IMG/VR virus record: IMGVR_UViG_3300013101_000072
Location: 1 to 26,153 of that record
From: a virus
Direction: 5' to 3' (one strand)
Length of the DNA: 26,153 nucleotides
A model generated the notes under the pieces. The model made no database searches and had not been told where the DNA came from. It saw only the letters and a program-made list of their open reading frames with translations. A program made the position numbers and the translations under genes. Of this stretch, positions 675-24,426 are shown one piece after another (within the stretch, counting starts at the first letter, position 1; each line of letters opens with the position of its first letter).

Positions 675-793
675 ACAACGGTCGGGGTTAAGATTAGTAG
701 CGAAACCTGATAAATATCATTTATTCTTAAATAACTTTCAATTAAATTCGATTATTATTAATCAGACAAGGTGCTATTTATTTTAACCCTTGT
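675..793. repeat. Long-range inverted repeat enclosing a promoter
   Basis: GGGTTAA at 685-691 is the exact reverse complement of TTAACCC at 783-789, and ACAA at 675-678 pairs with TTGT at 790-793. The arms enclose the palindromic operator and -7 element at 707-750. The ends (ACAACGG and CCTTGTTAGC) resemble the ends of the other spacer elements in 430-2040. Confidence 0.45.
707..750 (+). promoter_or_regulatory. Palindromic operator plus -7 element, copy 1
   Basis: The near-palindrome CTGATAAATATCAT (707-720) is followed after exactly 22 nt by TAAATTCG (743-750), a weak match to TAnnTTTG. The transcript would start near 757 and serve the gene at 834. It belongs to the family of eight such sites in the window. 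Confidence 0.55.
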
Positions 794-833
794 TAGCATT
801 AGTTTTTGCGGGCGGGATTAAAAACTTAATAAG

Positions 834-1028
834 ATGACAGATACAGGAATTAAAAGATTAATATTAGTAAGTGCGTTAGAAGCTGAAATGCAAGGTATGA
901 TTGCAGAAAATAAAAATAGAGAAGTGCAAGGTTTAGTAATGGCTTATGATTGTGATGCTTTTTATGATATAGCTGGAAAGATGAATGAGGTGGCACACAA
1001 ACACGATGATGAAATAATGGGCGTGTAG
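834..1028 (+). CDS. Hypothetical protein, 64 aa
   Basis: An unrecognised small acidic protein with a helical N-terminal half (about residues 5-30, Leu/Ala/Glu rich) and two histidines near the C-terminus. No signal peptide or zinc motif. It is the only gene between operator copy 1 and the next structured spacer, so it is probably expressed from the 743-750 promoter. Function unknown. Confidence 0.5.
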   Translation: MTDTGIKRLILVSALEAEMQGMIAENKNREVQGLVMAYDCDAFYDIAGKMNEVAHKHDDEIMGV

Positions 1029-1038
1029 GCAAATTAAA

Positions 1039-1088
1039 GCTAACGGATGGGGGTAGAAAATCGTTTTAATGTTTTCTAACCCGTGTTA
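1039..1088. repeat. Structured spacer element, copy 2 (hairpin with TCGTTTTAATG loop)
   Basis: GGGTAGAAAA (1051-1060) pairs with TTTTCTAACCC (1072-1082) with one bulged A. The loop at 1061-1071 is the same TCGTTTTAATG as copy 1. Outside it, TAAC in GCTAACGG (1039-1046) faces GTTA in CCGTGTTA (1081-1088). The combination of a constant loop, different stems and flanking GCTAACGG/CCGTGTTA motifs marks a defined element. Confidence 0.6.
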
Positions 1089-1197
1089 TTAACTGTATGG
1101 CTTTGACCTACAATGATTATTTGAAAAACTAAAGTAAAAAAGAAAAAAGGGGAGGGGAAAACTTTTTAGAGTACCCAATATATTAAACTTAATAGAC

Positions 1198-1542
1198 ATG
1201 GAAAAGTTTTGGAATATACTTGCGACTATATTTATGGTTGGATTTATGACTATGTGTACTGCTAGTATAATAATTTCAGATAAAGATGCTGAAAAAATAT
1301 GTGATGAAACACATTACTTTAAAATAACAAATAAGGATTATACAGATACAGGAAATTCAATTATATCTGACAACTATAATTATGTGATGTATTTTAATAG
1401 GTATGACAGAAATAAAAAGATAATAAAGTCTAGATACGATTTGAATAAGATAACAATAACTAAATATGAGTATGATAATTTAGATGTTGGGGTAATGTAC
1501 CACAAAAGTAAAGTTAATACTAGGACGTATGGCTACAACTAG
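1198..1542 (+). CDS. Hypothetical membrane-anchored protein, 114 aa
   Basis: Residues about 5-26 form a hydrophobic segment ending near a Cys, consistent with a signal anchor or a poor lipoprotein signal. The remainder is polar, rich in Tyr, Asn, Asp and Lys, and probably lies outside the cytoplasmic membrane. No domain recognised. It stands alone between structured spacers. The purine-rich leader before the ATG shows no clear ribosome site, which is normal for Bacteroidota. Confidence 0.55.
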   Translation: MEKFWNILATIFMVGFMTMCTASIIISDKDAEKICDETHYFKITNKDYTDTGNSIISDNYNYVMYFNRYDRNKKIIKSRYDLNKITITKYEYDNLDVGVMYHKSKVNTRTYGYN

Positions 1543-1543
1543 G

Positions 1544-1585
1544 GTGCGGTGGCTTTTCTTTTTGGTCAAACTTGCACGACCTTAA
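1544..1585. repeat. Spacer element of second type, copy 1
   Basis: Immediately after the stop codon, GTGCGGTGGCTTTTCTTTTT (from 1544) is followed by GCACGACCTTAA (1574-1585), with GTGC and GCAC complementary. The spacer after the next gene has the same order of motifs (1919-1969). Confidence 0.45.
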
Positions 1586-1695
1586 TAAAAGAGATACACA
1601 TTAAGCCATATTGTTTATAACGAATGGGTATAAGAACCGTGCGAAATAACGAACAAAAGATAAAACGAAGTACTAATTTAAAATAAAAAAAAGCG

Positions 1696-1914
1696 ATGGA
1701 AAGAAGTGAACATTTACAATGGTGTAAGGACAGAGCAAATGAGTATGTAGAGCAAAATGATACGCAACAAGCATTTGCAAGTTTTATGAGTGATATGGGT
1801 AAACACCCTGAAACATCTAATCATTTGGCATTAGAAATGGGAATGACATTGTTATTGTCTGGCAATTTGTCGAATGCCCACCAAATGAAAGAATGGATTA
1901 ACGGATTTAATTAG
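1696..1914 (+). CDS. Small conserved phage protein, 72 aa
   Basis: The sequence begins MERSEHLQWCKDRANEYV and carries an internal SDMGKHPETSNHLALEMGM segment. I associate this with a widespread small phage protein family of unknown function (pattern HLQWCKxRAxEYv ... sDxgKHPET ... G.LS....m..~iEGFN). It is all-helical and lacks a metal cluster or membrane segment. The family resemblance is from memory; it is the best evidence that the 5' region is phage-related. It sits alone between two structured spacers. Confidence 0.65.
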   Translation: MERSEHLQWCKDRANEYVEQNDTQQAFASFMSDMGKHPETSNHLALEMGMTLLLSGNLSNAHQMKEWINGFN

Positions 1915-1918
1915 TAGC

Positions 1919-1969
1919 GTGCGAGGGCTTTTTATTTTAAATTGCTCCAATTACGCACCGACCTTGAAA
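1919..1969. repeat. Spacer element of second type, copy 2
   Basis: GTGCGAGGGCTTTTTATTTT (from 1919) is followed by GCACCGACCTTGAAA (1955-1969). GTGCG (1919-1923) pairs with CGCAC (1954-1958). Motif order and position just after a stop codon match the element at 1544-1585. Confidence 0.45.
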
Positions 1970-1997
1970 CGAGAACGAAGGCAAGCATGGTTTTTAT

Positions 1998-2034
1998 ACC
2001 GTGTTAGCTTTTCGTTTTAATGAAAGCTAACGGT
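1998..2034. repeat. Structured spacer element, copy 3 (hairpin with TCGTTTTAATG loop)
   Basis: A perfect 9-bp stem, GTTAGCTTT (2003-2011) with AAAGCTAAC (2023-2031), closes the loop TCGTTTTAATG (2012-2022). ACC and GGT can extend the stem past a 2-nt bulge. CCGTGTTAGC and GCTAACGG flank the loop in the opposite order from copy 2. Confidence 0.6.
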
Positions 2035-2105
2035 CTGCGCATGTGTTTAGTGCGTTAATTACTGATGAAATAAATTAAATGTTTAACCAATAAAATTTAA
2101 GTGTG

Positions 2106-2459
2106 ATGGCAAATAAATTTGATTACCAAAATATGTTAACTAAGATTAATTCGCATAAAATAACTAAGAATAAAAACCTAAGTGTGAATTTTACTGAACA
2201 GGAAAGAACGGCTTGGAATGCCGCTATTGAATTGTGCCACGGAATAGTTAAAATGCGCAGGGGCAAGTTCGAACAAACAGCCGAGCCAGCATTAAATATA
2301 TGCGATGTTAGTGAACGTGCTTTGAAATGGTGGCACAATTTAAGCGATGGAAATCGCAGAAACTACGAGATTAAAACATTTGGTTATGGTGATGAATCTG
2401 AGGATAACACTTTAACTAATAGTGATATAGAAAAAATATATAATATGCATGTTCTCTAA
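2106..2459 (+). CDS. Hypothetical protein, 117 aa
   Basis: An unrecognised soluble protein with a basic N-terminal third and a Trp/Cys/His-containing middle (WNAAIELCHGIVK, about residues 37-49). A GTG directly before the ATG at 2106 could add one residue, but ATG is preferred. It is the last gene of the cassette-like region and ends just before the ribbon-helix-helix gene. Function unknown. Confidence 0.55.
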   Translation: MANKFDYQNMLTKINSHKITKNKNLSVNFTEQERTAWNAAIELCHGIVKMRRGKFEQTAEPALNICDVSERALKWWHNLSDGNRRNYEIKTFGYGDESEDNTLTNSDIEKIYNMHVL

Positions 2460-2504
2460 CTAGTGGATATAGCAACTTTTGTATTACAAATACGTATTAA
2501 TACT

Positions 2505-2714
2505 ATGAGTAATAGCAATTTAACAAAATCAATAAATCTTAGACTTACAGAAGATCAACATGAAGCTTTAGAAATGCTTATGAGTATAGGTTTCGATAGG
2601 TCTAAGTTTATAAGATTAGCGATAGATGAAAAGCTTTATAGGGATTACAGGAAATTATTAAAAAAACTTAGAGACTTAAATTCAGATAAAAATATTCCAG
2701 ATTGGGCTAAATAA
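2505..2714 (+). CDS. Ribbon-helix-helix DNA-binding protein
   Basis: This 69-aa protein has the Arc/MetJ/CopG layout: a short strand (KSINLRLTEDQ, about residues 7-17), helix one (HEALEMLMSIG) and helix two (RSKFIRLAIDEKL), followed by a basic tail. Such dimers bind operators and often repress their own or early phage promoters. ATG at 2505 is chosen over an upstream GTG at 2463 because the RHH strand then sits at the usual distance from the N-terminus. Ten bases after its stop comes operator copy 2, so it could act on nearby control regions; that link is inference. Confidence 0.7.
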   Translation: MSNSNLTKSINLRLTEDQHEALEMLMSIGFDRSKFIRLAIDEKLYRDYRKLLKKLRDLNSDKNIPDWAK

Positions 2715-2723
2715 TTCCTAAAC

Positions 2724-2767
2724 CTGATATTTATCATATTTAATTAATTATGGTTCCTATATATTTG
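2724..2767 (+). promoter_or_regulatory. Palindromic operator plus -7 element, copy 2
   Basis: CTGATATTTATCAT (2724-2737) is followed after exactly 22 nt by TATATTTG (2760-2767), a perfect TAnnTTTG. It is the best -7 match of the family. It precedes the block starting at 2790, which contains the Rad52-like gene. Confidence 0.7.
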
Positions 2768-2789
2768 TATCAGACAAACACAGAGAGCT

Positions 2790-3041
2790 ATGAAAAACTA
2801 TAACAAAAGCGAGATATTTACAAGAGCACATTTTTTATTTAGAACTTGTAAGTCTATGTATAAGACGTTTGGCGAAGCATTAAGCGATGTATGGCAGTCT
2901 GCTATTAAGAAAGTAAAAGAGGCTAATAAAAGCGCTAAAGAGTTGAAAACTTATAGAGAATTTCCAAAGGCTACTTCAATGGCTCAACCTAACTTATCAA
3001 ACGAATACAAACGCGAAATAGGATATAACTATGGAGACTAA
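2790..3041 (+). CDS. Small hypothetical phage protein, 83 aa
   Basis: The N-terminal half (IFTRAHFLFRTCKSMYKTFGEALSDVW, about residues 9-36) resembles small phage proteins with the pattern A..lfr....ytTFgeaLsdvWk.ak; their function is unknown. The C-terminus is basic and low in order. It is the first gene after operator copy 2, about 15 nt after the predicted transcription start, and overlaps the next gene by 11 nt. Confidence 0.6.
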   Translation: MKNYNKSEIFTRAHFLFRTCKSMYKTFGEALSDVWQSAIKKVKEANKSAKELKTYREFPKATSMAQPNLSNEYKREIGYNYGD

Positions 3042-3138
3042 AACATTAGCCCAGGAGCAGCAAGAAATAGACAACTTTCACAATAACGAAAGCTTTGATT
3101 TATTTGAAACATTAGCAGAAATCTTAAAACCAGAATAA
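3031..3138 (+). CDS. Acidic small protein, 35 aa
   Basis: METKTLAQEQQEIDNFHNNE is followed by an acidic helical segment. The ATG overlaps the end of the upstream gene by 11 nt and the next ATG follows the stop by one base, so it fits a translationally coupled chain. No known family. Confidence 0.45.
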   Translation: METKTLAQEQQEIDNFHNNESFDLFETLAEILKPE

Positions 3139-3139
3139 T

Positions 3140-3280
3140 ATGTTAATTACGAGAGAACACCAAGAGGCATTAGTAGAGATTTATAAAAAAGATCATAACC
3201 ATGATGAAACTATCGGCTTTATTGATGGCATGGGTAAAATGATGGAGTTGTTTATAAAACTAAGTAATCCAATAACATGA
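3140..3280 (+). CDS. Hypothetical protein, 46 aa
   Basis: A small protein with an N-terminal helix (ITREHQEALVEIYKK) and a Met-rich second helix. The stop overlaps the next start as ATGA. Kept because of its exact fit between two neighbours. Function unknown. Confidence 0.5.
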   Translation: MLITREHQEALVEIYKKDHNHDETIGFIDGMGKMMELFIKLSNPIT

Positions 3281-3423
3281 GCTACGACTACACATGTAAA
3301 GGCTGCACTCATGAATTTGATTATTGCGATTCAAAGACCCCGGAAGTATGCTTGGGCGCTGTGATGTGTCCCAGTTGTGGATCAATAGAGATTATTTTTA
3401 ACAACGATGAAGACTTATTTTAA
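3277..3423 (+). CDS. Zinc-ribbon miniprotein, 48 aa
   Basis: Two cysteine knuckles, CKGC (residues 7-10) and CPSC (residues 31-34), plus Cys17 and Cys25 indicate a rubredoxin-like zinc ribbon. Many phages carry such miniproteins, usually without known partners. Its start overlaps the preceding stop by 4 nt and the annealase gene follows 11 nt after its stop. Confidence 0.6.
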   Translation: MSYDYTCKGCTHEFDYCDSKTPEVCLGAVMCPSCGSIEIIFNNDEDLF

Positions 3424-3434
3424 ACTAAATAGAT

Positions 3435-4031
3435 ATGGAAAAGACTAAAATAACTACTGATATGCGCGCTAAATTACGCGCGGATTTCCCAAATGAAGCA
3501 TATAAGGCTCATCCAACAAAAACCTTTTTAACAACACTTAAAGCTATGTTTGTAGTTGAAAGGCTTAATGATGTATTTGGTGTTGGTAGATGGCATGTAA
3601 CTACTGAAATAATCGAAAGAACAACTGAGTACATAACTTTAAAAGGGTCATTCCATTCTTTAGATTATGACACTTGCGTTCCTGATCAATTTGGAGGGCA
3701 TACAACAGTTGGTAAAAATACCGAAATAGCAGACGGTTATAAATCAGCTGTTACGGATTGCATTAGCAAATTAGCATCTTATTTAGAAGTTGGTATTGAT
3801 ATGTTTAAAGGTGAAATAGCACCACCAAAAGCAGGTAGTAAACCATCAAATGATAAGTATAAATTTGGTTTAGCATCAGATGATTCATTGCCTTGGGTAA
3901 ATGACGGACAAGTAAGCGCAATGATTAAAGCTATTGCAGCAGATCAAAAAGAAAGTGTAGAAGTATCTCTAATAAAATATAAATGGTCAAAAGCTAACAA
4001 AGAAAAAATAACTAAGGAGCTTGACAAATGA
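3435..4031 (+). CDS. Rad52-like single-strand annealing protein
   Basis: The 198-aa protein resembles the Rad52/Sak type of phage annealases. It has RLNDVFGVGRWHV (about residues 42-54), a strand-rich middle, a Gly-rich turn and then NTEIADGYKSAVTDCISKLA (about residues 96-115), matching the family's AE..A.TDAlKrA helix. Annealases coat ssDNA and pair complementary strands during phage recombination and replication. The C-terminal ~60 residues are less conserved and may contact a single-strand binding protein. The next gene's ATG overlaps its stop (ATGA). RecT/Erf membership is less likely because of the conserved A-TDA-like helix. Confidence 0.7.
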   Translation: MEKTKITTDMRAKLRADFPNEAYKAHPTKTFLTTLKAMFVVERLNDVFGVGRWHVTTEIIERTTEYITLKGSFHSLDYDTCVPDQFGGHTTVGKNTEIADGYKSAVTDCISKLASYLEVGIDMFKGEIAPPKAGSKPSNDKYKFGLASDDSLPWVNDGQVSAMIKAIAADQKESVEVSLIKYKWSKANKEKITKELDK

Positions 4032-4147
4032 AAAGAAGTAAAGAAATATTCTTAGAAGTAAGACAATTAGAATTAAAACAAGAACAAGAAAAACAACTAC
4101 AACATGAACGAATTAAAGCCCAGAGAGGTAATTGTTCTTACTGTTGA
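4028..4147 (+). CDS. Gln/Glu-rich small protein, 39 aa
   Basis: A short, highly charged helix (LELKQEQEKQLQHERIK) ending in a Cys-containing tail. It overlaps the annealase stop by 4 nt and overlaps the following gene by 44 nt in another frame. Either it is real and overlapped, or only one of the two is translated. Function unknown. Confidence 0.4.
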   Translation: MKRSKEIFLEVRQLELKQEQEKQLQHERIKAQRGNCSYC

Positions 4148-4331
4148 TAAAACATACTACGAAAAACATTTGAATGTATTTAAGGCACCTAATACTAATA
4201 TTAAAAGCGTATTTGTAGAAGGTGAGAACCATGCAGAAGATGAAATGCATAAGAAATTACTTAAAAATTATCTCAAAGCTCAAAAAGAGTTAAGAGATTG
4301 GGAGTATAACAAAAGACATAATCAATTATAA
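4104..4331 (+). CDS. Hypothetical protein, 75 aa
   Basis: MNELKPREVIVLTVDKTYYEK gives a strand-rich N-terminal half, followed by a charged C-terminal helix. No known domain. It begins inside the preceding small gene and ends 10 nt before the coiled-coil gene, which also begins MNEL. Probably expressed with the annealase block. Confidence 0.55.
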   Translation: MNELKPREVIVLTVDKTYYEKHLNVFKAPNTNIKSVFVEGENHAEDEMHKKLLKNYLKAQKELRDWEYNKRHNQL

Positions 4332-4341
4332 ACTAAATAAT

Positions 4342-5355
4342 ATGAATGAATTAGTAAAAGTAGACCCTAAAGATTACGGACTAGAAGAAACTCAAGCAGT
4401 CGAGATAACAAAAGGATTGCAAACCATATTAGAAGAAAGGTCTGTTCTAATTGATAACTATAAAGAAACTATTGCTTTAGAAATAACAGAGGATAGCATT
4501 CCTGTATTTAAAGCATTAAGATTACAAATAGTTAAAAATAGAACACAAGGATTAAAAGTATGGCATAAAGCTAATAAAGCTTATTTCTTAGCTGGGGGTA
4601 ATTTTGTACAAGAAATTTACAACAAAGAAGTAATTGAGAATGAGCGTATGGAATCTCAGTTAATGGAAGCCGAAAAGCATTTCGAGAACTTAGAAAATGA
4701 AAGAATTGAAAAACTTAGTGCTGAAAGATACGAATCTTGTTTGCCATTTGTAGAAGATATATCTTTAATACTTCCAGACTTAGGGACTATGCCAGTTGCT
4801 TTATGGGACAATTATATAATAGGTTTAAAAGCAAGTTTTGAGGCAAAGAAGGCAGAAGAAAAGCGTATTGAAGCTGAAAGACTTGCAGCAGAAAAAGCGG
4901 AAATTGAAAGACAAAAAGCAATTGAAGTTGAAAATGCTAAATTAAAAGCAGAGGCAGAAGAAAGAGAAAAGCAATTAAAAATTGAGTCTGAGAAAAGAGC
5001 GAAAGAAGAAGTTGAAAAGCAAGCTAAATTAAATGCAGAAAGAAAAGAACAAGAAGCGAAAGTAGAGAAAATAAGAATTGAAGCTGAAAATAAATTGAAA
5101 GCTGAGCGCGAAGAAAAAGAGCGTATTGCAGAAGCTTTAAGAATTAAAGAAGAGAACGAAAAGAAAGAACTTGAAAGAATCGAATTAGAAAAACAATCTG
5201 AATTAAATAAAGGCGATTCTGCAAAAGTCAAAGATTTAATTGCAGACCTCGAAACATTGAAAACAAAATACTCTTTTAAATCTGCTAAAAACAATAAAAT
5301 GTATGATCGCGTAGGCTTATTGCTTGATAAAGTGATAGCAGATATTAATGGTTAA
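4342..5355 (+). CDS. Coiled-coil protein next to the annealase
   Basis: A 337-aa protein with a globular N-terminal part (residues 1-165), a Lys/Glu/Ala-rich coiled coil (about residues 165-285) and a short C-terminal globular tail (about 290-337). Long coiled-coil proteins of this shape often sit beside phage annealases and RecB-like nucleases; their exact role is not established. Alanine and glutamate runs raise the risk of misleading similarity to unrelated coiled coils. A 160-aa frame on the opposite strand over the coiled-coil part is a shadow. Confidence 0.65.
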   Translation: MNELVKVDPKDYGLEETQAVEITKGLQTILEERSVLIDNYKETIALEITEDSIPVFKALRLQIVKNRTQGLKVWHKANKAYFLAGGNFVQEIYNKEVIENERMESQLMEAEKHFENLENERIEKLSAERYESCLPFVEDISLILPDLGTMPVALWDNYIIGLKASFEAKKAEEKRIEAERLAAEKAEIERQKAIEVENAKLKAEAEEREKQLKIESEKRAKEEVEKQAKLNAERKEQEAKVEKIRIEAENKLKAEREEKERIAEALRIKEENEKKELERIELEKQSELNKGDSAKVKDLIADLETLKTKYSFKSAKNNKMYDRVGLLLDKVIADING

Positions 5356-5697: not shown

Positions 5698-5733
5698 CTG
5701 ACAAATATCATTAAATAACAATTAACTATTTTG
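5698..5733 (+). promoter_or_regulatory. Palindromic operator, copy 3, with non-standard spacing
   Basis: CTGACAAATATCAT (5698-5711) matches the family, but the nearest -7-like element is TATTTTG (5727-5733), only 15 nt downstream instead of 22. No TAnnTTTG lies at the 22-nt position. It precedes the gene at 5755. Confidence 0.45.
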
Positions 5734-5754
5734 CACTGAACTAAAAATTAGATT

Positions 5755-7031: not shown

Positions 7032-7176
7032 AATAAAATATATCTGCACAGGTTGCGGCTGTAAATATCACATGAAATTCCAAGACACAACTTTGTGCTT
7101 CACTTGTCTGCGCTCTACATTCCACGAACTAAATAAGAAGTTAAAAATTGATTTTAAATTTAATCAATATGGATAA
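7024..7176 (+). CDS. Zinc-ribbon miniprotein, 50 aa
   Basis: MPKIKYICTGCGCKYHMKFQ contains a C-x2-C pair (residues 8 and 11), and CFTC lies about 15 residues later, giving a two-knuckle zinc ribbon. A TTG at 6994 would lengthen it but overlaps the upstream gene; ATG 7024 is the better start. The stop overlaps the next ATG by one base. Confidence 0.55.
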   Translation: MPKIKYICTGCGCKYHMKFQDTTLCFTCLRSTFHELNKKLKIDFKFNQYG

Positions 7177-7373
7177 TGAGTAATTACCATTACATACAAT
7201 GGAATAATAGAGAGATTGAATTACTTATATCTATGCGTAAAAAAGGGTATAGTTTTTACAAGATAGCTAATGAATTTGGCGTTACTACCGAATCAGTAAA
7301 ACAACAATACAGGAAAGTTAAGCCAATAAAGACTAAAAGACAGTTATTTAAAGAATTTAATTACTATATATGA
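7176..7373 (+). CDS. Helix-turn-helix miniprotein, 65 aa
   Basis: Residues about 9-45 (NNREIELLISMRKKGYSFYKIANEFGVTTESVKQQYRK) form three helices in a SANT/GcrA-like DNA-binding arrangement. Small proteins of this kind may regulate phage genes. Its TGA stop is the TGA of operator copy 4, so gene end and control site share bases. Confidence 0.6.
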   Translation: MSNYHYIQWNNREIELLISMRKKGYSFYKIANEFGVTTESVKQQYRKVKPIKTKRQLFKEFNYYI

Positions 7374-7413
7374 CATTTATCATATCCTATTAAATAAAAC
7401 CTCTATATCTTTA
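7370..7413 (+). promoter_or_regulatory. Palindromic operator plus -7 element, copy 4
   Basis: ATGACATTTATCAT (7370-7383), then exactly 22 nt, then TATCTTTA (7406-7413). Transcription would start near 7420, which excludes a TTG start at 7414 for the next gene and favours ATG 7435. The operator contains the stop codon of the upstream gene. Confidence 0.65.
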
Positions 7414-7434
7414 TTGAATATTAATACTAAAGCT

Positions 7435-9359: not shown

Positions 9360-9523
9360 AAAAATTAATAGGCACATGTATTTTAGTGGTTTTATTTATT
9401 GGCGGCTGTATTGCATTATTAGAGTTTGTGCCGTTGAAAGCTTTATTAATATCATTAGGAATAACAATTACTGTTTATGGCTTAGTTATATATGCTTTGT
9501 ATTTAATATTCGATGAAACCTGA
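9356..9523 (+). CDS. Two-helix membrane protein, 55 aa
   Basis: Two hydrophobic segments (about residues 3-22 and 29-51) separated by a short turn. The N-terminal segment ends at a GGC, a possible lipobox-like cysteine. No charged catalytic residues. Its TGA stop lies inside operator copy 5. A holin-like role cannot be excluded but nothing else supports it. Confidence 0.45.
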   Translation: MKKLIGTCILVVLFIGGCIALLEFVPLKALLISLGITITVYGLVIYALYLIFDET

Positions 9524-9563
9524 TTTTTATCATAGTTTGTAATATAAATAGGAATTACTTTAG
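9520..9563 (+). promoter_or_regulatory. Palindromic operator plus -7 element, copy 5
   Basis: CTGATTTTTATCAT (9520-9533), exactly 22 nt, then TACTTTAG (9556-9563). The predicted transcript starts near 9570, at the very beginning of an open frame without ATG (9568-9762). Confidence 0.6.
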
Positions 9564-9567
9564 TTAA

Positions 9568-9762
9568 AAATTAAACGATATAGATAATTTATATCTGCAT
9601 AAACAGCCTAGAGGTTTAAATATATGCGAAGCTAGACAACAAGCTTTAAAAGATATAACATTAGAATGCTCGCAAGATGGGGTATATTCCAGAAATTATT
9701 TACATATAGAACCTATTGTTTTAAATCAAAAAATTATACCATATAAAATATTAACGATATGA
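9568..9762 (+). pseudogene. Open frame without a standard start codon
   Basis: This frame is open for 64 codons to TGA at 9760-9762 but has no ATG, GTG or TTG; the only alternative near the start is CTG at 9595. The inferred protein contains QPRGLNICEARQQALKDI and looks protein-like. Its stop overlaps the next ATG as ATGA, the pattern seen between real neighbours. It may have lost its start, use a rare start, or be chance. Confidence 0.35.
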
Positions 9763-11930: not shown

Positions 11931-12671
11931 ATGGCAGAAGGTAAAAAATCATTTGTTCTTTATGTTGACTCGAAAGAAACATGGGAAGAATTAACAGACG
12001 AGCAAGCAGGGAAGCTGATTAAGCATATATATAAATATGTTAATGATGAAAATCCAATTATGGATGATCAATTATTAAATATTGCTTTCCTGCCAATTAA
12101 ACACCAATTAAAAAGGGATTTAAAACGATGGGAATCAAAACAAAAGCAACGAAGCGAAGCTGGTAAACGTAGCGCTGAAATTCGTGCATCGAAACAAAAC
12201 GAAAAGCAGCGAAAAGCAACGACCGTTAAAAGTCGTTCAACGAAATCAACTGTTAGTGTTAATGTAAATGATAGTGTAAGTGTAAGTGTAAGTGATAGTG
12301 TAAATGATAGTGTAAATGAAAAAGAAAAACAATATAGAGTGTTTGCTCACTTAAAAATATCTATCGAAGAAAACAAAAAGCTATTAGAATTAGGATATAG
12401 TCAAAAACAAGTAGATTCAGTATATGATGATATTGAAAACTATAAAAAGAATACTTCTTATAAATCACTTTATTTAACTGCAAAGAAGTGGTTGAAAAAA
12501 GAATATAGTGATATAAGTCATAGTAATAATGAAGTAAAGTCTTTACATTTATTCGAGTGTACATATAATGCAGGAATAACACAGCGTTATGAAGTAGATA
12601 CACAAAAAGAAGCTGAAACAAAGTATTATAATGACTTTGGAGTTACTCCAAATGTAAAGCAAATTAGATAA
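11931..12671 (+). CDS. Replication-organizer-like protein (DUF6291-type N-terminus)
   Basis: The 246-aa protein begins with [20 protein letters not shown] and continues through a domain of about 70 residues that I recall as DUF6291, common in phage replication modules of Bacteroidota. A basic linker (residues ~70-105) and an Asn/Ser/Val repeat (about residues 106-129) follow, then a helical C-terminal region. The repeat is encoded by 12-nt DNA units. The gene lies immediately upstream of the primase-helicase and overlaps it by one base, as expected for a replication initiator or helicase loader. The exact activity is inferred. Confidence 0.6.
12270..12317 (+). repeat. 12-nt tandem repeat inside the replication-organizer gene
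   Basis: GATAGTGTAA occurs at 12270-12279, 12294-12303 and 12306-12315, spaced by 24 and 12 nt, with a degenerate unit between the first two. The array encodes the S-V-N-D repeat of the protein. Lambda-like phages place origin iterons inside the initiator gene, so an origin role is possible. Confidence 0.55.
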
Positions 12672-15307: not shown

Positions 15308-15556
15308 ATGGAAAAGCAAAGAAACACTATTTTAAAATTATTACAATCTGGTAATGTTATGTCAAAACTACAATTTATAAATGGTCATCACATTTTAAAT
15401 CCAGGAGCTAGGATTGAGGAGTTAAGGAATAGATTTGAATACCCAATAGAAAAGATAATGGTAAAGAATAAATATTCAAAGCGAAAATTTGCTGTTTACT
15501 TTATTAGACCCCGCGTAAAGGATATTGATTTAATCCTAAGAAGTTACAATAACTGA
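15308..15556 (+). CDS. Winged-helix-like small protein, 82 aa
   Basis: The start (KQRNTILKLLQSGNVMSKLQ) and PGARIEELRNRF (about residues 38-49) match small phage helix-turn-helix proteins with the pattern iL.lLq.g..lt ... R..eLR..G.pI. The TGA stop is shared with operator copy 6. A regulatory role is plausible. Confidence 0.6.
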   Translation: MEKQRNTILKLLQSGNVMSKLQFINGHHILNPGARIEELRNRFEYPIEKIMVKNKYSKRKFAVYFIRPRVKDIDLILRSYNN

Positions 15557-15595
15557 CTTTTATCATATTTAAAACTAAACTATTAATATAAATTG
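15553..15595 (+). promoter_or_regulatory. Palindromic operator plus -7 element, copy 6
   Basis: CTGACTTTTATCAT (15553-15566), exactly 22 nt, then TAAATTG (15589-15595). It contains the stop codon of the gene upstream and drives the IbrA/nuclease/IbrB-like block. It rules out a TTG start at 15593 for the next gene, since that codon is part of the -7 element. Confidence 0.65.
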
Positions 15596-15613
15596 CAAAG
15601 AAAAGTAAATGAT

Positions 15614-16039
15614 ATGGAGCAAATATTTATCCCTTATTGGGAGTGGGAGGATTGGAAAAATGGAATGTATAAAAGTACTCCTAAAGAAGAAGAGAAAAAA
15701 GATATAAAAAAAGCTAAAATATTTATGAGCCAAACAGATTTATTTGGTAAAAACATGAAACTAGTCATATCAGAATGGGGAAACACAATGTTAAATTCAT
15801 TGACTAATTCAGATATAAACAAAGAAGCTTTTGTTGGACAATGTGCATGTTGTTATGCAATAGGTGTAACTGAATCAATAACAAAAAAGGCATGGCATTC
15901 ATTAGATTTAGAAAAACAAATAAAGGCGAATAAAATAGCCCGTTATTATATTAATGAATATGTTTCTAATTATGAAAGAAAAAATAGAAAAATACATAAA
16001 GACATGGGAAGACAGATGTTATTCGACTGGGATTCCTGA
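15614..16039 (+). CDS. Hypothetical protein at the head of the IbrA/IbrB-like block, 141 aa
   Basis: It begins MEQIFIPYWEWEDWKNGMY and has a central domain with GQCACCYAIG (about residues 75-84) in which three cysteines cluster, possibly a metal site. The C-terminal third is a charged helix. I do not know the family. As the first gene after operator copy 6, and overlapping the next gene by 68 nt, it probably works with the IbrA/IbrB-like proteins downstream. Confidence 0.55.
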   Translation: MEQIFIPYWEWEDWKNGMYKSTPKEEEKKDIKKAKIFMSQTDLFGKNMKLVISEWGNTMLNSLTNSDINKEAFVGQCACCYAIGVTESITKKAWHSLDLEKQIKANKIARYYINEYVSNYERKNRKIHKDMGRQMLFDWDS

Positions 16040-16223
16040 TGAAGCACCTCAAGAAATAACTCATAAAGTATCGGATTACAAAAAAATATGTATAGCGATA
16101 TTGAAAAACGATAAAGCATTAAAAACATTAGGCTTTGAGCCTAAAAAAACACTAATATATAGTGAGTTCAAAAGAATAGAAATAGAAGATAGGAATAAAG
16201 TAAAACAATTAAAAATATTCTAA
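15972..16223 (+). CDS. Small protein sharing the C-terminal motif of the IbrA-like protein, 83 aa
   Basis: Residues about 36-57 (SDYKKICIAILKNDKALKTL) closely match the C-terminal region of the IbrA-like protein next to it (PSYKRMCITILKNDFTCKYM, about residues 397-416). The first 30 residues (EKYIKTWEDRCYSTGIPDE) are a separate module. It may be a stand-alone copy of the C-terminal domain, helping the IbrA-like enzyme. ATG 15954 would add six residues and overlap the upstream gene further; 15972 fits the domain start. Its stop overlaps the next ATG. Confidence 0.6.
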   Translation: MKEKIEKYIKTWEDRCYSTGIPDEAPQEITHKVSDYKKICIAILKNDKALKTLGFEPKKTLIYSEFKRIEIEDRNKVKQLKIF

Positions 16224-17542
16224 TGAAAATATACAACCCAGAAATAAACGTTTATGAAGCTTTTAATAGTAGAGTAAAAGACATCTTTGATAACTTTGAT
16301 AATATATGCATTAATTTCTCTGGCGGTAAAGATAGCGGTGTATTACTTAATTGTATTGTAAAATATATGAGAGAAAATAATATAACAAAAAAAATCAGCG
16401 TGTTTCATTTTGATTATGAAGGTCAGTATGAATACACACAAGAATATCTAGAGAGAGAAATGACTAGTAATTTAGATTTGTTTGATGTATATTGGGTATG
16501 TATACCGTGTAAAGCTTTGTGTGGGGTTTCAATGCATCAAAGTTACTGGACTCCTTGGCATCCAGATCAAGAAGATATTTGGGTGCGAAAAATGCCTAAA
16601 TATGATTCTGTTATCAATATAGATAATCATGAATTTGATTTTTATAAATTTGAAATGCAGGATACTGATTTTGGATACGAATTTTATAAATGGTTGCATA
16701 AAAAGAAGAAAGCAGAAAAAAGCATATATTTATTAGGACTTAGATCAGATGAAAGTCTTAATAGGTATAGAGCCTCGGTAAATAATAAGAAGCAAATGTT
16801 TAACGGATGGAATTGGTCTACTAAATTATTTGATAATATTTATTGGGCATACCCTTTATATGATTGGACTGTTGAGGATATATGGGTAGCCAATGCAAAA
16901 TTCGAGTTTGATTACAATAAACTTTACGACTTGTATTATAAAGCAGGCTTAAGCATAGCACAAATGAGAGTTGCTAGTGCTTTCTTGGATGAGGGAGTAG
17001 GTGGATTAAAGTTGCATAAAGCTATCGAGCCAAATATATGGAGTAGATTAATAGGTCGAGTTAACGGGGCGAATTTTGCATCTATTTACGGAGGGACTAA
17101 GGCAATGGGGTTTAGAAAAATAACAATTCCCAAAGGCCATACATGGAAGTCGTATTGCGACTTTTTACTAAGCACTTTACCTAAAGAGACATCTGAGTTA
17201 TATAAAAAAAAATTTGAAAATTCATTTAAAGTCTGGATGGGAAAAGGAGGAGCATTAGAGATTCATATCGTAGATGAATTAAAGGAAAAAGGTTATAATA
17301 TAGAGATTTTAGGCACACCAGTTAAAAACGTGCAATACAACTCAGAGAGAATACTAGTCCGTTTTAATGAATATCCTGACGATATGAAGGTTTCAGATTT
17401 TAAAAATTTACCATCATATAAAAGAATGTGTATAACTATACTGAAAAATGATTTCACATGTAAATATATGGGGTACGCTCAAACAAAATATGAAAAGGAA
17501 ATAAGAAATGAAGCTGAAAACAAGTATAAAAACATAACTTAA
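16223..17542 (+). CDS. IbrA-like PAPS-reductase-family protein
   Basis: The 439-aa protein has the PP-loop SGGKDS (residues 33-38) of the PAPS reductase/ATP-pyrophosphatase family, a CIPCKALCG cysteine region, GLRSDESLNRYR and YPLYDWTVEDIW, and the C-terminal PSYKRMCITILKNDFTCKYM segment (DUF3440-like) seen in IbrA. PP-loop enzymes adenylate a substrate, often to add sulfur; DndC is a relative. The true reaction here is unknown. With the IbrB-like gene and a nuclease close downstream it probably forms a functional set. Start overlaps the upstream stop by one base. Confidence 0.75.
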   Translation: MKIYNPEINVYEAFNSRVKDIFDNFDNICINFSGGKDSGVLLNCIVKYMRENNITKKISVFHFDYEGQYEYTQEYLEREMTSNLDLFDVYWVCIPCKALCGVSMHQSYWTPWHPDQEDIWVRKMPKYDSVINIDNHEFDFYKFEMQDTDFGYEFYKWLHKKKKAEKSIYLLGLRSDESLNRYRASVNNKKQMFNGWNWSTKLFDNIYWAYPLYDWTVEDIWVANAKFEFDYNKLYDLYYKAGLSIAQMRVASAFLDEGVGGLKLHKAIEPNIWSRLIGRVNGANFASIYGGTKAMGFRKITIPKGHTWKSYCDFLLSTLPKETSELYKKKFENSFKVWMGKGGALEIHIVDELKEKGYNIEILGTPVKNVQYNSERILVRFNEYPDDMKVSDFKNLPSYKRMCITILKNDFTCKYMGYAQTKYEKEIRNEAENKYKNIT

Positions 17543-17552
17543 AATTAATAAA

Positions 17553-18092
17553 ATGAAAAAACCTAGCGTAACTGAATTAATAAAATTATTAGATAAGCCA
17601 GCTTTATTAAGTTGGGCTAATAAACAGGGGTTAATAGGTGTTGATATAACTAAAAAAAGAAAGGAATGGTTGAATTACGGCACTTCATTACATAATCAAA
17701 TTTATGAATACATTACAACTGGCACCCCATTAATAAAGGAGTCAGATATGAATAATTATAATTTTTTTTTTAAAGACAAAGAAATACTATCTGTTGAATG
17801 CAAAGTTGAGAATGAATATTTCACAGGTACATATGATTTAATCTACAAAAAAAACAATAAAATATATTTATCTGATTATAAAAGCAATGCGAAAAATATA
17901 TATTTTGAGAATAAACTGCAATTAGTGGCATATTCAATGTGTGTTGATTGTGACGCATTATCTATAATTTCAATTCCTGATTTTAAAGAAATGCCATTTA
18001 ATATATCAGATAAAGAACCATATATTGAAATATTAAAATCATTAAGTATAATTTATAAACAAAAACAATTAATCAATGGAAACAAATTTTAA
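17553..18092 (+). CDS. Cas4/RecB-like PD-(D/E)XK nuclease
   Basis: The 179-aa protein carries the RecB-family set: GTSLHNQIYEYI (His47), an acidic strand before GTYDLIY (Asp95), LSDYKS (Asp108 and Lys110) and the QLVAYSM helix (Gln123 to Tyr127). Only the C-terminal cysteine Fe-S set of Cas4 is absent; a single-subunit exonuclease is likely. It could supply single strands for the Rad52-like annealase or act on modified DNA with the IbrA/IbrB-like pair. It overlaps the next gene by 17 nt. Confidence 0.7.
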   Translation: MKKPSVTELIKLLDKPALLSWANKQGLIGVDITKKRKEWLNYGTSLHNQIYEYITTGTPLIKESDMNNYNFFFKDKEILSVECKVENEYFTGTYDLIYKKNNKIYLSDYKSNAKNIYFENKLQLVAYSMCVDCDALSIISIPDFKEMPFNISDKEPYIEILKSLSIIYKQKQLINGNKF

Positions 18093-18624
18093 AAGCCCCG
18101 TCTATAAAGTTTTAGCTGTCCAAATAGAGAAGATACAAGCAAATAGCTACAATCCTAATAGTGTCGCTCCTCCAGAAATGAAGCTTTTGTATAAATCAAT
18201 ATTAGAAGATGGATACACTATGCCAATAGTGTGTTATTACCTTGAAGATGTCGACATGTATGAAATAGTAGACGGTTATCACCGATATACAACAATGCTA
18301 AACCATAAAGATATATTTGATCGAGAAAAAGGTTATTTACCAGTATCAATAATAGATAAACCCATTTCTGATAGAATGGCTTCAACCATAAGACATAATC
18401 GCGCAAGAGGCTCTCACGGAATAGATTTAATGACAAATATAGTAGCTGAATTATCAGGATCAGGTATGAGCGATAATTGGATAATGAGGCACATAGGCAT
18501 GGATAAAGATGAATTATTAAGATTGAAACAATTATCAGGACTTCAAGAATTATTTAAAGATAGCGAGTTCTCTGATAGTTGGATACCTAAAAATGAAATA
18601 CAAAATGGAACAATTAATAAATAG
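18076..18624 (+). CDS. IbrB-like ParB-fold protein
   Basis: This 182-aa protein has the pattern of IbrB-type ParB N-terminal domains: ANSYNPNSVAPPEM (about residues 22-35), EDGYTMPIV, VDGYHR (65-70), DRMASTIRHNRARGSHGI (99-116) and GMDKDELLRLKQLSG. In ParB-like proteins the DG-x-HR and RHNRARG motifs bind nucleotide. IbrA and IbrB usually occur together, and their function is not well established. The gene is closely linked with the IbrA-like gene and a nuclease, so a DNA-related role is a reasonable hypothesis. Confidence 0.75.
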   Translation: METNFKSPVYKVLAVQIEKIQANSYNPNSVAPPEMKLLYKSILEDGYTMPIVCYYLEDVDMYEIVDGYHRYTTMLNHKDIFDREKGYLPVSIIDKPISDRMASTIRHNRARGSHGIDLMTNIVAELSGSGMSDNWIMRHIGMDKDELLRLKQLSGLQELFKDSEFSDSWIPKNEIQNGTINK

Positions 18625-18876: not shown

Positions 18877-18920
18877 ATGATTTAAATCATGGTTATTAAA
18901 AATAATTAGTAATAATTTAG
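18877..18920 (+). promoter_or_regulatory. Palindromic operator plus -7 element, copy 7
   Basis: ATGATTTAAATCAT (18877-18890) is a perfect palindrome, followed after exactly 22 nt by TAATTTAG (18913-18920). It starts the small-gene block from 18931. Confidence 0.65.
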
Positions 18921-18930
18921 CCAAAGTATT

Positions 18931-19439: not shown

Positions 19440-19455
19440 CATAAAAACTAAAACC

Positions 19456-19993: not shown

Positions 19994-19994
19994 T

Positions 19995-20102: not shown

Positions 20103-20119
20103 TTTTCATAACTAATTAA

Positions 20120-20133
20120 TATTTTGTAAATTG
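20120..20133 (+). promoter_or_regulatory. Possible Bacteroidota -7 element
   Basis: TATTTTG (20120-20126) directly followed by TAAATTG (20127-20133), both variants of the -7 motif, upstream of the gene at 20152. There is no palindromic operator at the family spacing. Confidence 0.35.
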
Positions 20134-20151
20134 CAGTGATGATTATAACTA

Positions 20152-20370: not shown

Positions 20371-20374
20371 CACT

Positions 20375-20623: not shown

Positions 20624-20793
20624 TGTACCTAAAAGAAGGAATAACTCACATGCAGGCACAACTACAAACATGTAACAACTGCATTTCAAATAAAAAGAAA
20701 TGCGATAACCCAGGGAGTAGACTATATGATCTTGAGGTATCGCCAAACGGTTCTTGTCCTGAGTTTGAACTTAATATGAATTTTGAATCATGA
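20623..20793 (+). CDS. Cys-rich small protein, 56 aa
   Basis: CNNCISNKKKC (residues 17-27) plus Cys45 near the end form a likely zinc-binding cluster. Overlaps both neighbours (TAATG at the start and ATGA at the end). Function unknown. Confidence 0.5.
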   Translation: MYLKEGITHMQAQLQTCNNCISNKKKCDNPGSRLYDLEVSPNGSCPEFELNMNFES

Positions 20794-21026
20794 ACATAGG
20801 TAAACTAAAAGCCATAATAGATAGAGAACTTAGCTATGTTAGTAAATTCAATTTTGTAATGATAGGCTATCTATTCTTTAAAGATGTCGGGTTTCACTGG
20901 TGGTATTTATTTATCATACCTTTATTTCTTATTTGGGTATTCATAGACTTAAAATATATAATGCCTAAAGAACTTAATTATCTGCATGGTAAAAGCCCTT
21001 TCTTACAAAAACTAATGAATAAATGA
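20790..21026 (+). CDS. Hypothetical membrane protein, 78 aa
   Basis: Two hydrophobic stretches, about residues 22-30 and 37-52 (WWYLFIIPLFLIWVFI), suggest a hairpin in the membrane. The C-terminus is soluble and basic. It precedes the methyltransferase with an ATGA overlap. Function unknown. Confidence 0.5.
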   Translation: MNIGKLKAIIDRELSYVSKFNFVMIGYLFFKDVGFHWWYLFIIPLFLIWVFIDLKYIMPKELNYLHGKSPFLQKLMNK

Positions 21027-21532
21027 ACAAATACAAAGTAAATCCTTCTACTGAACTAAAATACTTATCTGTTCGGTTTAATTCTGTTAAGCACTTAGAC
21101 TTAATTAAGCCAGTGCTAGACGCAGGTGGAGAAAATGACTTTGCTAAAGAGCTTGGAATAAATAATTTTATAAGCGGCGACTTAAATTACGCTAAATTTT
21201 TCCAAGATGAATATAAAACTATAACTTCATTTGAGGTAATAGAACACCTTCAAAATCCGTTAATATATTTACGGTCTATATGTGATAATTTAACCTATGA
21301 CGGCACACTATATTTAACCACTCCTGTAAGATGGATATTCAAAGGTAAGTTCCACTTTCATGAGTTCAGTAAAGAAGAGTTAATATTCTGCTTAAAAGAG
21401 GCTGGGTTTAATACAATCGAAGTAAGCAGAATACAAGCGTATAATCTAGCACACTTTGGAATAAGGCCACTAATACGCAAACTAAGAGATATGATACTCG
21501 GACAATGTTTTTTAATTAAAGCTACAAAATGA
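21023..21532 (+). CDS. SAM-dependent methyltransferase
   Basis: A 169-aa class I methyltransferase. LDAGG (about residues 31-35) is the SAM-binding loop, a short acidic strand ends in GDLN, and FEVIEHL (about residues 70-76) is the post-motif typical of Methyltransf_11/23 proteins. The substrate is unknown; there is no DNA-target domain and no amino-methyltransferase NPPF motif, so small molecules, sugars or lipids are as likely as DNA. The coupled glycosyltransferase-like gene suggests joint modification of a carbohydrate. Confidence 0.7.
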   Translation: MNKYKVNPSTELKYLSVRFNSVKHLDLIKPVLDAGGENDFAKELGINNFISGDLNYAKFFQDEYKTITSFEVIEHLQNPLIYLRSICDNLTYDGTLYLTTPVRWIFKGKFHFHEFSKEELIFCLKEAGFNTIEVSRIQAYNLAHFGIRPLIRKLRDMILGQCFLIKATK

Positions 21533-22089
21533 ATTTAACTTGGACAGGTACGGATGTACTTCATTGTACAAAATACCCAAAGCATAGCAAGAAAACAAAG
21601 TACGTTTATATGTTCCTTCTTAGAATGGTTGTAAAATTAGCCGATATATTCGTACAAAAGCATGTCGTGGTATCAGAACACTTATTGCCAGAAATGAAGC
21701 TAAAGAAGCCTATAATAGTACAAAACAACCCGGTATGGTATGCAGAGCCACTACCTAAGAAACCACATAAAGGATTTAACATATTGTATTATCAAGGCAT
21801 AGGGAGTAATCAAGTATTTATGAATTGGCTTTATGGGAAAGATGTTGTGGGCGAAATCAAAAATCTATTTCCAGAGCTGAACTTTATAGAAGTATCTGGT
21901 AGTAGAGATATGAAAGAAATCTACCCAATTATAGATTTTTACTTAAGACCAAATAGACACGATGGCGACCCTAGAATGGTGAGAGAATGCATATTAAACA
22001 ATATACCGTATTATCATAGCTGGGAAAATCCAAACGTTCAAGAAGTGTTTGAATCAATTACAGAGGTAATAAGAAATGAAAGATTATAA
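21529..22089 (+). CDS. Short glycosyltransferase-like protein, 186 aa
   Basis: The middle and C-terminal part show the GT-B donor half: PKKPHKGFNILYYQGIGS (about residues 75-92), then PRHDG-like loops and PRMVRECILNNIPYYHS (about residues 145-161), which resembles the glutamate-containing nucleotide-sugar motif of family 4-type enzymes. The acceptor half normally before it is reduced. It overlaps the methyltransferase by 4 nt, so the two are probably made together. Sugar and acceptor unknown. Confidence 0.6.
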   Translation: MNLTWTGTDVLHCTKYPKHSKKTKYVYMFLLRMVVKLADIFVQKHVVVSEHLLPEMKLKKPIIVQNNPVWYAEPLPKKPHKGFNILYYQGIGSNQVFMNWLYGKDVVGEIKNLFPELNFIEVSGSRDMKEIYPIIDFYLRPNRHDGDPRMVRECILNNIPYYHSWENPNVQEVFESITEVIRNERL

Positions 22090-22282
22090 TGGTAACGAAA
22101 TAGAATTAATAACAGGTAATTACTACTGGGTGTTACAGAATAAGGTGCTATTTATAGCTCAATATGAGGGTGATTATTGGCAAACTGATATAAGTGTTGC
22201 TATTGATGAGTTTAATAGAAACACTCATGTAATACAAGAGGTTAAAAAGCCTAAAGATTTTGAATCATATAAGGTATTTTGA
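22076..22282 (+). CDS. Hypothetical protein, 68 aa
   Basis: MKDYNGNEIELITGNYYWVL followed by YEGDYWQTDISVAI suggests a small beta-barrel. No family recognised. Overlaps the upstream gene by 14 nt. Confidence 0.5.
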   Translation: MKDYNGNEIELITGNYYWVLQNKVLFIAQYEGDYWQTDISVAIDEFNRNTHVIQEVKKPKDFESYKVF

Positions 22283-22283
22283 A

Positions 22284-22487
22284 ATGACTAATAAATACAC
22301 ATTAGAAGAACTTAAAGAGAAACATAGGTTTATTATTAAACATCCAGAACGAGGGAGTGAAAAAATGGATCAACTGTTTAGGGTAATTAGCGAGCATGAA
22401 TGTTCATATGTAGAATATTATACTGGCAAACAAAATAATGATATTGCAAAGCATCCAATAAGGTTAATTATATTATGTATAAATTAA
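22284..22487 (+). CDS. Hypothetical protein with TerS-like N-terminal motif, 67 aa
   Basis: It starts MTNKYTLEELKEKHRF and is helical; the KYTLEELKEK string recurs as KYTLDELKEK at the start of the small terminase that follows. A TTG at 22260 is less likely because it overlaps the preceding gene by 23 nt. Function unknown. Confidence 0.5.
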   Translation: MTNKYTLEELKEKHRFIIKHPERGSEKMDQLFRVISEHECSYVEYYTGKQNNDIAKHPIRLIILCIN

Positions 22488-22514
22488 AGATTTAGGAATT
22501 AAACCAATATAGTA

Positions 22515-23114
22515 ATGGAAGAAGAGAAGAAATATACTCTTGATGAATTAAAAGAAAAACTAACCGAAAAGGAGCGCTTATTTTGTCACCAGTATATTAT
22601 TGATTGGAACGGAGCAAGGGCGGCAAGGGCGGCAGGATATAGTGAAGAAAGCGCAAAAGAAATAGCTCATGCAACATTAACAAAAGTTCACATTAAGCAA
22701 TATATAGATTTCATCAAAAATGATTTTGAAAAGGAGGCAGGGATAAGTAAGCTAAGCCAAATAAATGAACTTAAAAAAATAGCCTATTCTAGCATAGCCC
22801 ATTTGCATAATACATGGATTGAGTTAAAAGAGTTTGAAGCTTTATCTGATGAGCAAAAAGAATGCATTGAAAGTATAGACACTAAGCATGAAACAAAACA
22901 GATATTTAACATAGAGAAAGAAGAAAAAGAAGATATTCATGTTAATTATGTTAAGATAAAATTATATTCAAAATTAAGCGCAATAGACCAGATTAATAAA
23001 ATGATGGGATATAATGAGCCAGATAAAATAGATCATTCAAGTAAAGACGGTTCAATGACTCCTGCATTAAATATTAATTATAATGATAAGAAAATAAACC
23101 TATCAGATAAATGA
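22515..23114 (+). CDS. terS: Small terminase subunit (TerS)
   Basis: The 199-aa protein has the Terminase_2 pattern: LTEKERLFCHQYIIDWNGAR (residues 16-35), RAARAAGYSEESAKEIAH (HTH, about residues 34-51) and a helical C-terminal oligomerisation part. TerS binds the packaging site on phage DNA and regulates the large subunit. The stop overlaps the TerL start by 4 nt, the usual arrangement. It begins with KYTLDELKEK, shared with the preceding small protein. Confidence 0.85.
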   Translation: MEEEKKYTLDELKEKLTEKERLFCHQYIIDWNGARAARAAGYSEESAKEIAHATLTKVHIKQYIDFIKNDFEKEAGISKLSQINELKKIAYSSIAHLHNTWIELKEFEALSDEQKECIESIDTKHETKQIFNIEKEEKEDIHVNYVKIKLYSKLSAIDQINKMMGYNEPDKIDHSSKDGSMTPALNINYNDKKINLSDK

Positions 23115-24382
23115 TATTTGATCCCAACCCGTTATTCTATGAAATGCTTGGGATTTATGACGACAATAAAACCCCTGAGAATAAGATAACGATATGCAAT
23201 GAAGGTAGCTCAAGAAGCTCTAAAACTTGGGACGCAATACATTTAATAGTCGCATATTATGACCACAACAGAGGGAAGGGATTAGAAACGTACGTACTCA
23301 GAAACACCTTAGTAGACTGTAGGGATTTCACATATAAAGAGTTTGAGAAGTGTTTTATTAAAATAGGTATTTGGGATAAAGTAAAGAAAAAAGAAAGCCC
23401 GAAGCCATATATAAACCTATTCGGTAATCATATATATTTCAGAGGTCTGGACGAAGACAAAGAAGCCCCACCAAGCGACATTATATTTGTAAACGAAGCT
23501 TTAGAGGTGGAAACCAGAAGAAAGCTAAAAGGATGGTTTATGCGTTGTAGAAGATTGCAGGTTATGGATTGGAATCCTAAGTTCTCGCAACATTGGTGTT
23601 TTGATCTTGAAGGACAACCAAATGTTTACTTTACTCATTCAACATATAAAAATAATAAACATCTTGAGAAGTCAGTAGTTGCAGAAATAGAGTCTTATTG
23701 TCCATGGCATTTCGAAGACCTACATTTACCTAAAGAGAAAAGAAGACCCCACCCATTTAACATTAAGAATCAAACAGCCGATGACTATCAATGGTCTGTA
23801 TATGGTGAGGGTATAAGATCAGCACCAGAAGGATTAATATTCCAACAAGTTAATTATATTGATGAATGGCCTATTGATATAGCTCCAATTCATGCTATGG
23901 ATTTCGGTTTTACTGCTGACCCATCAGCCTTTGGTAAAGTAGGGGAAAACAGTACGGATATATTCTTAGAATTATTAATGTATGAATCAACAGAAACAAG
24001 CTCGATAATCAATGATTATGCAGAAGCCAGAGGTATTAATAAGCATATACCATGCACCGCTGATAGCTCGGATAAGTACACAGGCGAGAATAAAGGAACG
24101 GTTGAAATGGTTCGAGAGTTAAGAGATGACTACGGATGGAACATACAAAAGGTAAGCAAGACAAAGAACGTTATGTATTGGCTTTTAAGAATGAAGAAAA
24201 AGCGAATAAACATTGTTAAGAATGAGTTTTACCATCATGCTAAAAAAGAACAAGAAAATTACAGACTTAAATTAGTGAATGGTATCGCTATAAACCAACC
24301 GATAGATAAGTTTAATCACTTTTGGGATATGGCGAGATATGGCTTTATGGCTTTAAATTCCCAAAGACAGGGCATGTGGTAA
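23111..24382 (+). CDS. terL: Large terminase subunit (TerL)
   Basis: The 423-aa protein has the packaging ATPase and nuclease set. Walker A is GSSRSSKT (residues 32-39), Walker B is DIIFVNEA with catalytic Glu128 (about residues 123-130), and the nuclease aspartates lie in AMDFGFTADP (Asp264), TADSSD (about residues 316-321) and HFWDMARYG near the end. It cuts concatemeric DNA and pumps it into the prohead. The length and motifs fit the Terminase_3 (PBSX-like) family. It is followed by operator copy 8, so packaging genes here end a transcription block; the portal and capsid genes would lie beyond the window. Confidence 0.9.
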   Translation: MIFDPNPLFYEMLGIYDDNKTPENKITICNEGSSRSSKTWDAIHLIVAYYDHNRGKGLETYVLRNTLVDCRDFTYKEFEKCFIKIGIWDKVKKKESPKPYINLFGNHIYFRGLDEDKEAPPSDIIFVNEALEVETRRKLKGWFMRCRRLQVMDWNPKFSQHWCFDLEGQPNVYFTHSTYKNNKHLEKSVVAEIESYCPWHFEDLHLPKEKRRPHPFNIKNQTADDYQWSVYGEGIRSAPEGLIFQQVNYIDEWPIDIAPIHAMDFGFTADPSAFGKVGENSTDIFLELLMYESTETSSIINDYAEARGINKHIPCTADSSDKYTGENKGTVEMVRELRDDYGWNIQKVSKTKNVMYWLLRMKKKRINIVKNEFYHHAKKEQENYRLKLVNGIAINQPIDKFNHFWDMARYGFMALNSQRQGMW

Positions 24383-24383
24383 T

Positions 24384-24426
24384 ATGACAAATATCATTTT
24401 ATATATGGTGATTGTTTTGTAGGTTG
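24384..24426 (+). promoter_or_regulatory. Palindromic operator plus -7 element, copy 8
   Basis: ATGACAAATATCAT (24384-24397) is followed after exactly 22 nt by TAGGTTG (24420-24426), a -7 variant. It begins one base after the TerL stop and drives the block from 24443. Confidence 0.65.

Follow-up and report, generated by a model that had tools for sequence, protein, structure and literature searches.

The window analysed here (the whole 26,153-base virus record IMGVR_UViG_3300013101_000072 from IMG/VR; 31% G+C) carries a repeated promoter module in which a Crp/Fnr-type palindrome, MTGAY-N4-ATCAT, stands at a fixed distance ahead of a Bacteroidota-type -7 box. The reading we favour, with a probability of about 0.82, is that a low-oxygen regulator of the host's own Crp/Fnr family activates class II promoters of many phage gene blocks. 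As we picture it, a host dimer would bind the palindrome centred at -41.5 and recruit RNA polymerase to the -7 box (TAnnTTTG or TAnnTTGY); at least seven such promoters, lying at the heads of gene blocks, would plug these blocks into the low-oxygen regulon of the host—the host's, because no Crp/Fnr protein is detected in the phage—and their expression would then track its low-oxygen or redox programme. The binder would most likely be an FNR-like low-oxygen regulator of Flavobacteriaceae (the ‘CEQC’ type, see below) or a paralogue, such as a Crp protein with a receiver domain.

All eight copies of the palindrome lie on the + strand, where a preliminary description of the window had placed them (Table 1), and its gap of 22 nucleotides (nt; N22) between palindrome and -7 element is confirmed in seven of these, with TAnnTT falling exactly there; at every other offset between 5 and 44 nt, a TA dinucleotide is shared by at most five of the eight. 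Every site retains the core TGAY-N4-ATCA (8/8), that is, the two-fold symmetric TGA-N6-TCA of Crp/Fnr sites; four of the phage's seven modules have an asymmetric form, CTGAY, and the -7 boxes of the copies at 15553 and 24384 are SM5-like (TAnnTTGY). In a refinement of the preliminary description, the box is MTGAY-N4-ATCAT, with none of the eight sites matching the TTGAT-N4-ATCAA box of Escherichia coli FNR. The modules are all oriented with the direction of the genes; several overlap the stop codon of the gene before or come after it, and the following gene often has its ATG 15–25 nt beyond the -7 box. Measured against 1000 dinucleotide shuffles of the window (+ strand counts), the eight palindromes compare with a mean of 0.32 (maximum 3), and the seven N22-TAnnTT modules with a mean of 0.005 (maximum 1).

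Sequencing of transcription start sites in Flavobacterium psychrophilum has located TAnnTTTG at -12 to -5, and its SM5 variant TAnnTTGY at the same place (PMC9723704). With this mapping, the 14-nt palindrome and its 22-nt spacer can be set on the promoter, spanning -48 to -35 with the centre exactly at -41.5; the previous estimate of a centre near -41 is thus refined, by sequence, for seven of the eight copies. A centre at this place is what defines class II sites for CRP and FNR. The remaining copy, at 5698, has an SM5-like TATTTTGC at N15 (5727–5734), which would put its palindrome near -34.5, over the -33 region; this copy would not be class II, and is possibly repressing or non-functional.

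The same module is present in bacterial genomes. When the whole collection, with each species represented by a single genome, was scanned for ATGACN4ATCAT-N22-TAnnTTTG, at least 117 loci were returned, and among the matches listed nearly all belong to Bacteroidota or Ignavibacteria/Chlorobi, the first downstream genes being hemN (13 loci), UspA-type (7), thioredoxin-like (6), cytochromes c (6), Pta (5), ccoNO (3) and, at two loci each, ccoS/FixS, nirK, transhydrogenase alpha (pntA), tryptophanase and hibernation factor (HPF); this is the standard low-oxygen set, with cbb3 oxidase, hemN and the like. In 60 genomes from a single set of Flavobacteriaceae, with the reversed pattern as control, ATGAYN4ATCAT-N22-TAnnTTTG gave 121 matches versus 1 and the CTGAY form 52 versus 0, whereas the textbook TTGAY..ATCAA box with N22 gave 7 versus 2. 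With the gap left free between 8 and 38 nt, 32 of 58 palindrome/-7 pairs in the hosts sit at exactly 22, and three each at 21 and 23. The phage modules equal the host cco/hemN promoters in palindrome, outer-base preference and N22 spacing, and thus copy the host box down to its outer bases; the class II Crp/Fnr reading of the preliminary description is strengthened by finding an identical arrangement before Flavobacteriaceae low-oxygen genes.

These findings also bear on a use of the sites in repression, by which a host Crp/Fnr protein would silence phage genes at low oxygen or keep a prophage quiet. FNR is able to repress, and the palindrome at 5698 is placed where polymerase would be blocked; the -41.5 position with fixed spacing is nevertheless the activating one of class II promoters, and the layout recurs before the type of gene that low oxygen induces in F. 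psychrophilum, where both cbb3 oxidase and heme biosynthesis (heme enzymes) respond in this way (PMC9723704). We therefore consider repression very improbable.

The hosts have several Crp/Fnr proteins, one class of which (MxKCEQC...) matches FNR of Aliivibrio fischeri. Its Cys4, Cys7 and Cys106 align with cysteines that serve as Fe-S ligands in FNR; no Cys stands at the position aligned with the third N-terminal one, and the protein has other Cys residues. Comparing recognition helices (GTATESAIR in the CEQC protein, GLTVETISR in FNR), we see that the residues E and R, which read the TGA core, are kept and that Ser is changed to Ile; this Ile, beside the R, could explain the altered outer base. 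In 13 of 37 genomes, the gene for the FNR-like protein and a strict module are no more than 5 kb apart (expectation, 0.28), and genomes with the protein have more modules (2.6 versus 1.1, P = 0.0008). In agreement with the preliminary description, no Crp/Fnr gene is seen by eye in the window, which was not profile-searched for PF13545 or PF00027; eight other module-bearing virus records gave no profile match to PF13545 (Crp/Fnr helix-turn-helix, HTH) or PF00027 (cNMP-type). The activator is thus probably the host's, and the original proposal of one ‘host or phage Crp/Fnr-type protein’ would be narrowed to its host half, with the 5698 copy falling outside the class II geometry.

Those eight viral contigs, supplied by pattern scans of IMG/VR and read entirely or for the most part, carry between three and eight modules each (G003, 8; G468 and G469, 5; G005 and G471, 4; G004, G006 and G470, 3). 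With the selecting hits removed and the window's own modules included, spacing N22 is counted 29 times versus no more than 8 at any other spacing. Few proteins are common to these phages and that of the window, or to one another, the exceptions being a G003/G471/G470 group and a G004/G469 pair; the eight contigs form several weakly related groups. Within the G003/G471/G470 group, two members with homologous downstream sequence (L030 and L040) have identical palindromes and -7 boxes, with flanks 27–40% identical and spacers 50% in an ungapped count. Window gene 3435 has a counterpart in G003 (products 71% identical over 129 amino acids), each of the two lying downstream of a module, and a cassette of PAPS-reductase/DUF3440 and ParB-like genes follows a module in the window (15593–18624) and in L089:9931-12123; gene order within the cassette differs between these two otherwise different phages. 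Across the whole virus collection, single strict hits (52) barely exceed those of the reversed control (42), making the module a property of some phages and not of phages at large.

An accidental product of AT-rich phage DNA might be suspected from these collection-wide single hits and from the window's A + T content of 69%. Such an origin is, in our judgement, scarcely credible: seven aligned copies stand against an expectation of 0.005, and modules are absent from control virus loci totalling 381 kb, as they are from five relatives (named below) that resemble the window in composition. On the shuffles, the spacing distribution and the control loci, chance was rejected. A second alternative has a phage-encoded protein of some other family binding the palindromes, as activator or repressor, with the resemblance to the host being convergent. 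Phage regulators typically have operators in several copies, small HTH-like open reading frames (ORFs) are present in the window (Table 1), and the copy at 5698 coincides in part with a possible promoter; yet half-site, outer-base preference, spacer and -7 box all match the host regulon, weakly related phages have the module as well, and their eight records hold no Crp-type gene, so that we rate this alternative as improbable. The broader proposal that several weakly related Bacteroidota phage lineages have wired many of their promoters into an oxygen-responsive Crp/Fnr regulon of the host, and that infection would differ at low oxygen, is a tentative one, to which we give slightly less than an even chance; were it right, such phages would tend to escape isolation under air.

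That said, a number of observations weigh against host activation as we propose it. The module is absent from the five closest TerL relatives (L001, L002, OP947161, Nekkels_1 and phi10:1) and from seven further GenBank phages (Freya_1, Danklef_1, FPSV-S2, JQ, PJN03, hattifnatt9-1 and elemoA), with none of the ten GenBank phages fetched carrying it, and is thus not required for this lifestyle; the isolates among these GenBank phages were presumably obtained by culture in air; this would fit a niche linked to oxygen and proves nothing. Seeking the host through TerL in 395 genomes found no close TerL, the matches being 22–33% identical; the window may be a fragment; and one palindrome in eight (5698) lacks the class II geometry. 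As regards oxygen sensing, which is putative for the CEQC protein, the fourth Cys ligand of FNR is not kept there at the expected place. Modules are still found in 12 of the 23 host genomes that lack this protein.

Since these 12 genomes keep their modules, and since receiver-domain Crp genes are often the neighbours of modules, the site may be shared with another Crp/Fnr paralogue. Were it a different paralogue that activates, for instance a response-regulator-fused Crp, phage expression would follow a two-component or metabolic signal and not oxygen directly. Seven genomes (G056, G029, G044, G053, G015, G043 and G068) have modules immediately next to receiver-domain Crp genes, and UspA and REC-Crp clusters are frequent targets; the strongest measured physical linkage and count correlation, however, belong to the CEQC FNR protein, and cco and hemN are the classic FNR/FixK targets. 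We regard a paralogue of this kind as unlikely, if a serious candidate, and retain the FNR-like protein as the preferred activator. In the same seven Flavobacteriaceae and in G023, receiver-domain Crp/Fnr genes are repeatedly flanked by the module, which suggests a second regulator or autoregulation tied to the box.

Table 1. Modules and listed genes of the window; predicted starts derive from setting the -7 box at -12 to -5
Feature	Position	Strand	Palindrome	-7 box	Predicted start	Remarks
Module 1	707–755	+	CTGATAAATATCAT (707–720)	TAAATTCG (743–750)	~755	Spacer 22; next listed ORF 834
Module 2	2724–2772	+	CTGATATTTATCAT (2724–2737)	TATATTTG (2760–2767)	~2772	ATG 2790; gene 3435 downstream in block
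Exception copy	5698–5711	+	CTGACAAATATCAT			CACTGAAC at N22, no -7 box there
Module 3	7370–7418	+	ATGACATTTATCAT (7370–7383)	TATCTTTA (7406–7413)	~7418	ATG 7435
Module 4	9520–9568	+	CTGATTTTTATCAT (9520–9533)	TACTTTAG (9556–9563)	~9568	Next listed ATG ORF 9759
Weaker ninth candidate	12508–12556	+	GTGATATAAGTCAT (12508–12521)	TACATTTA (12544–12551)		N22
Module 5	15553–15601	+	CTGACTTTTATCAT (15553–15566)	TAAATTGC (15589–15596)	~15601	ATG 15614; block holds genes 16223 and 18076 (+)
Module 6	18877–18925	+	ATGATTTAAATCAT (18877–18890)	TAATTTAG (18913–18920)	~18925	Perfect palindrome; short ORF, ATG 18931
Module 7	24384–24432	+	ATGACAAATATCAT (24384–24397)	TAGGTTGC (24420–24427)	~24432	ATG 24443; immediately past TerL stop
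NinB	6442	+				
Small HTH-like ORF	7176–7373					Weak HTH_7 match
Small HTH-like ORF	10676					
Primase-helicase	12671	+				
PAPS-reductase/DUF3440 protein	16223	+				
ParB-like protein	18076	+				
TerS	22515	+				
TerL	23111–24382	+				
Small HTH-like ORF	25545					

The weaker ninth candidate has one mismatch in its downstream half-site, RTCAT variants being found in other module phages, and lies inside ORF 11931–12671, 119 nt upstream of the primase-helicase gene. Elsewhere in the window, a methyltransferase-like and a glycosyltransferase-like gene (called by eye) are adjacent at 21023–22089, immediately before the terminase genes, and genes for tRNA-Pro(TGG) and tRNA-Gln(TTG) are found at 25893–26103, both covered by a minus-strand ORF (25772–26104) that is probably spurious. 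Searches for related loci with the 3435 protein and with the primase as queries found no relatives. The relative OP947161 (L003) is labelled a Rhodobacteraceae phage; its TerL is 61% identical to that of this Bacteroidota-type phage, and it may carry an incorrect host label.

The usual course for a phage is to replace host transcription or to redirect it; the one studied here apparently entrusts many of its gene blocks to an environmental regulator of the host. The parts, namely those of a class II Crp/Fnr promoter, are known, and their wholesale use by phages with no apparent activator gene was not found in the literature searched; nor did the titles and passages covered there describe the box or the use of FNR by phages, which is not proof of absence. 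Comparative genomics defines a flavobacterial FNR-type box, MTGAY-N4-ATCAT with N22 to the -7 box, likewise not described in those sources. If our reading is right, oxygen or redox control of phage infection becomes testable with single promoters.

Among known systems, the T4 middle promoters of the MotA type, in which an activator box replaces the upstream element, resemble the module in serving many phage gene blocks through one box set at constant spacing from a -10-type box; the activator there comes from T4 itself, whereas no activator gene was found in the module phages and the box is the host's own. Class II promoters of FNR and CRP in E. coli share the symmetric TGA..TCA core, the centre at -41.5, identical spacing across targets and a single activator dimer adjoining the polymerase site, but differ in the outer bases (A/C and T in the phage as against TTGAT-N4-ATCAA) and in having TATAAT in place of the Bacteroidota TAnnTTTG. 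In Alphaproteobacteria, FnrN/FixK, Crp/Fnr proteins with or without an Fe-S cluster, control the cco operon, hemN and their own gene, a set of targets like that seen here, although the consensus (TTGANCNNGATCAA), phylum and sigma factor are different, and phage copies of that box are not described in the passages of the source (PMC4999443). Finally, the oxygen-limitation study of F. psychrophilum, the main text of which names neither a Crp/Fnr regulator nor a palindrome, has in common with the module both forms of the -7 box, TAnnTTTG and TAnnTTGY, at -12 to -5 (PMC9723704).

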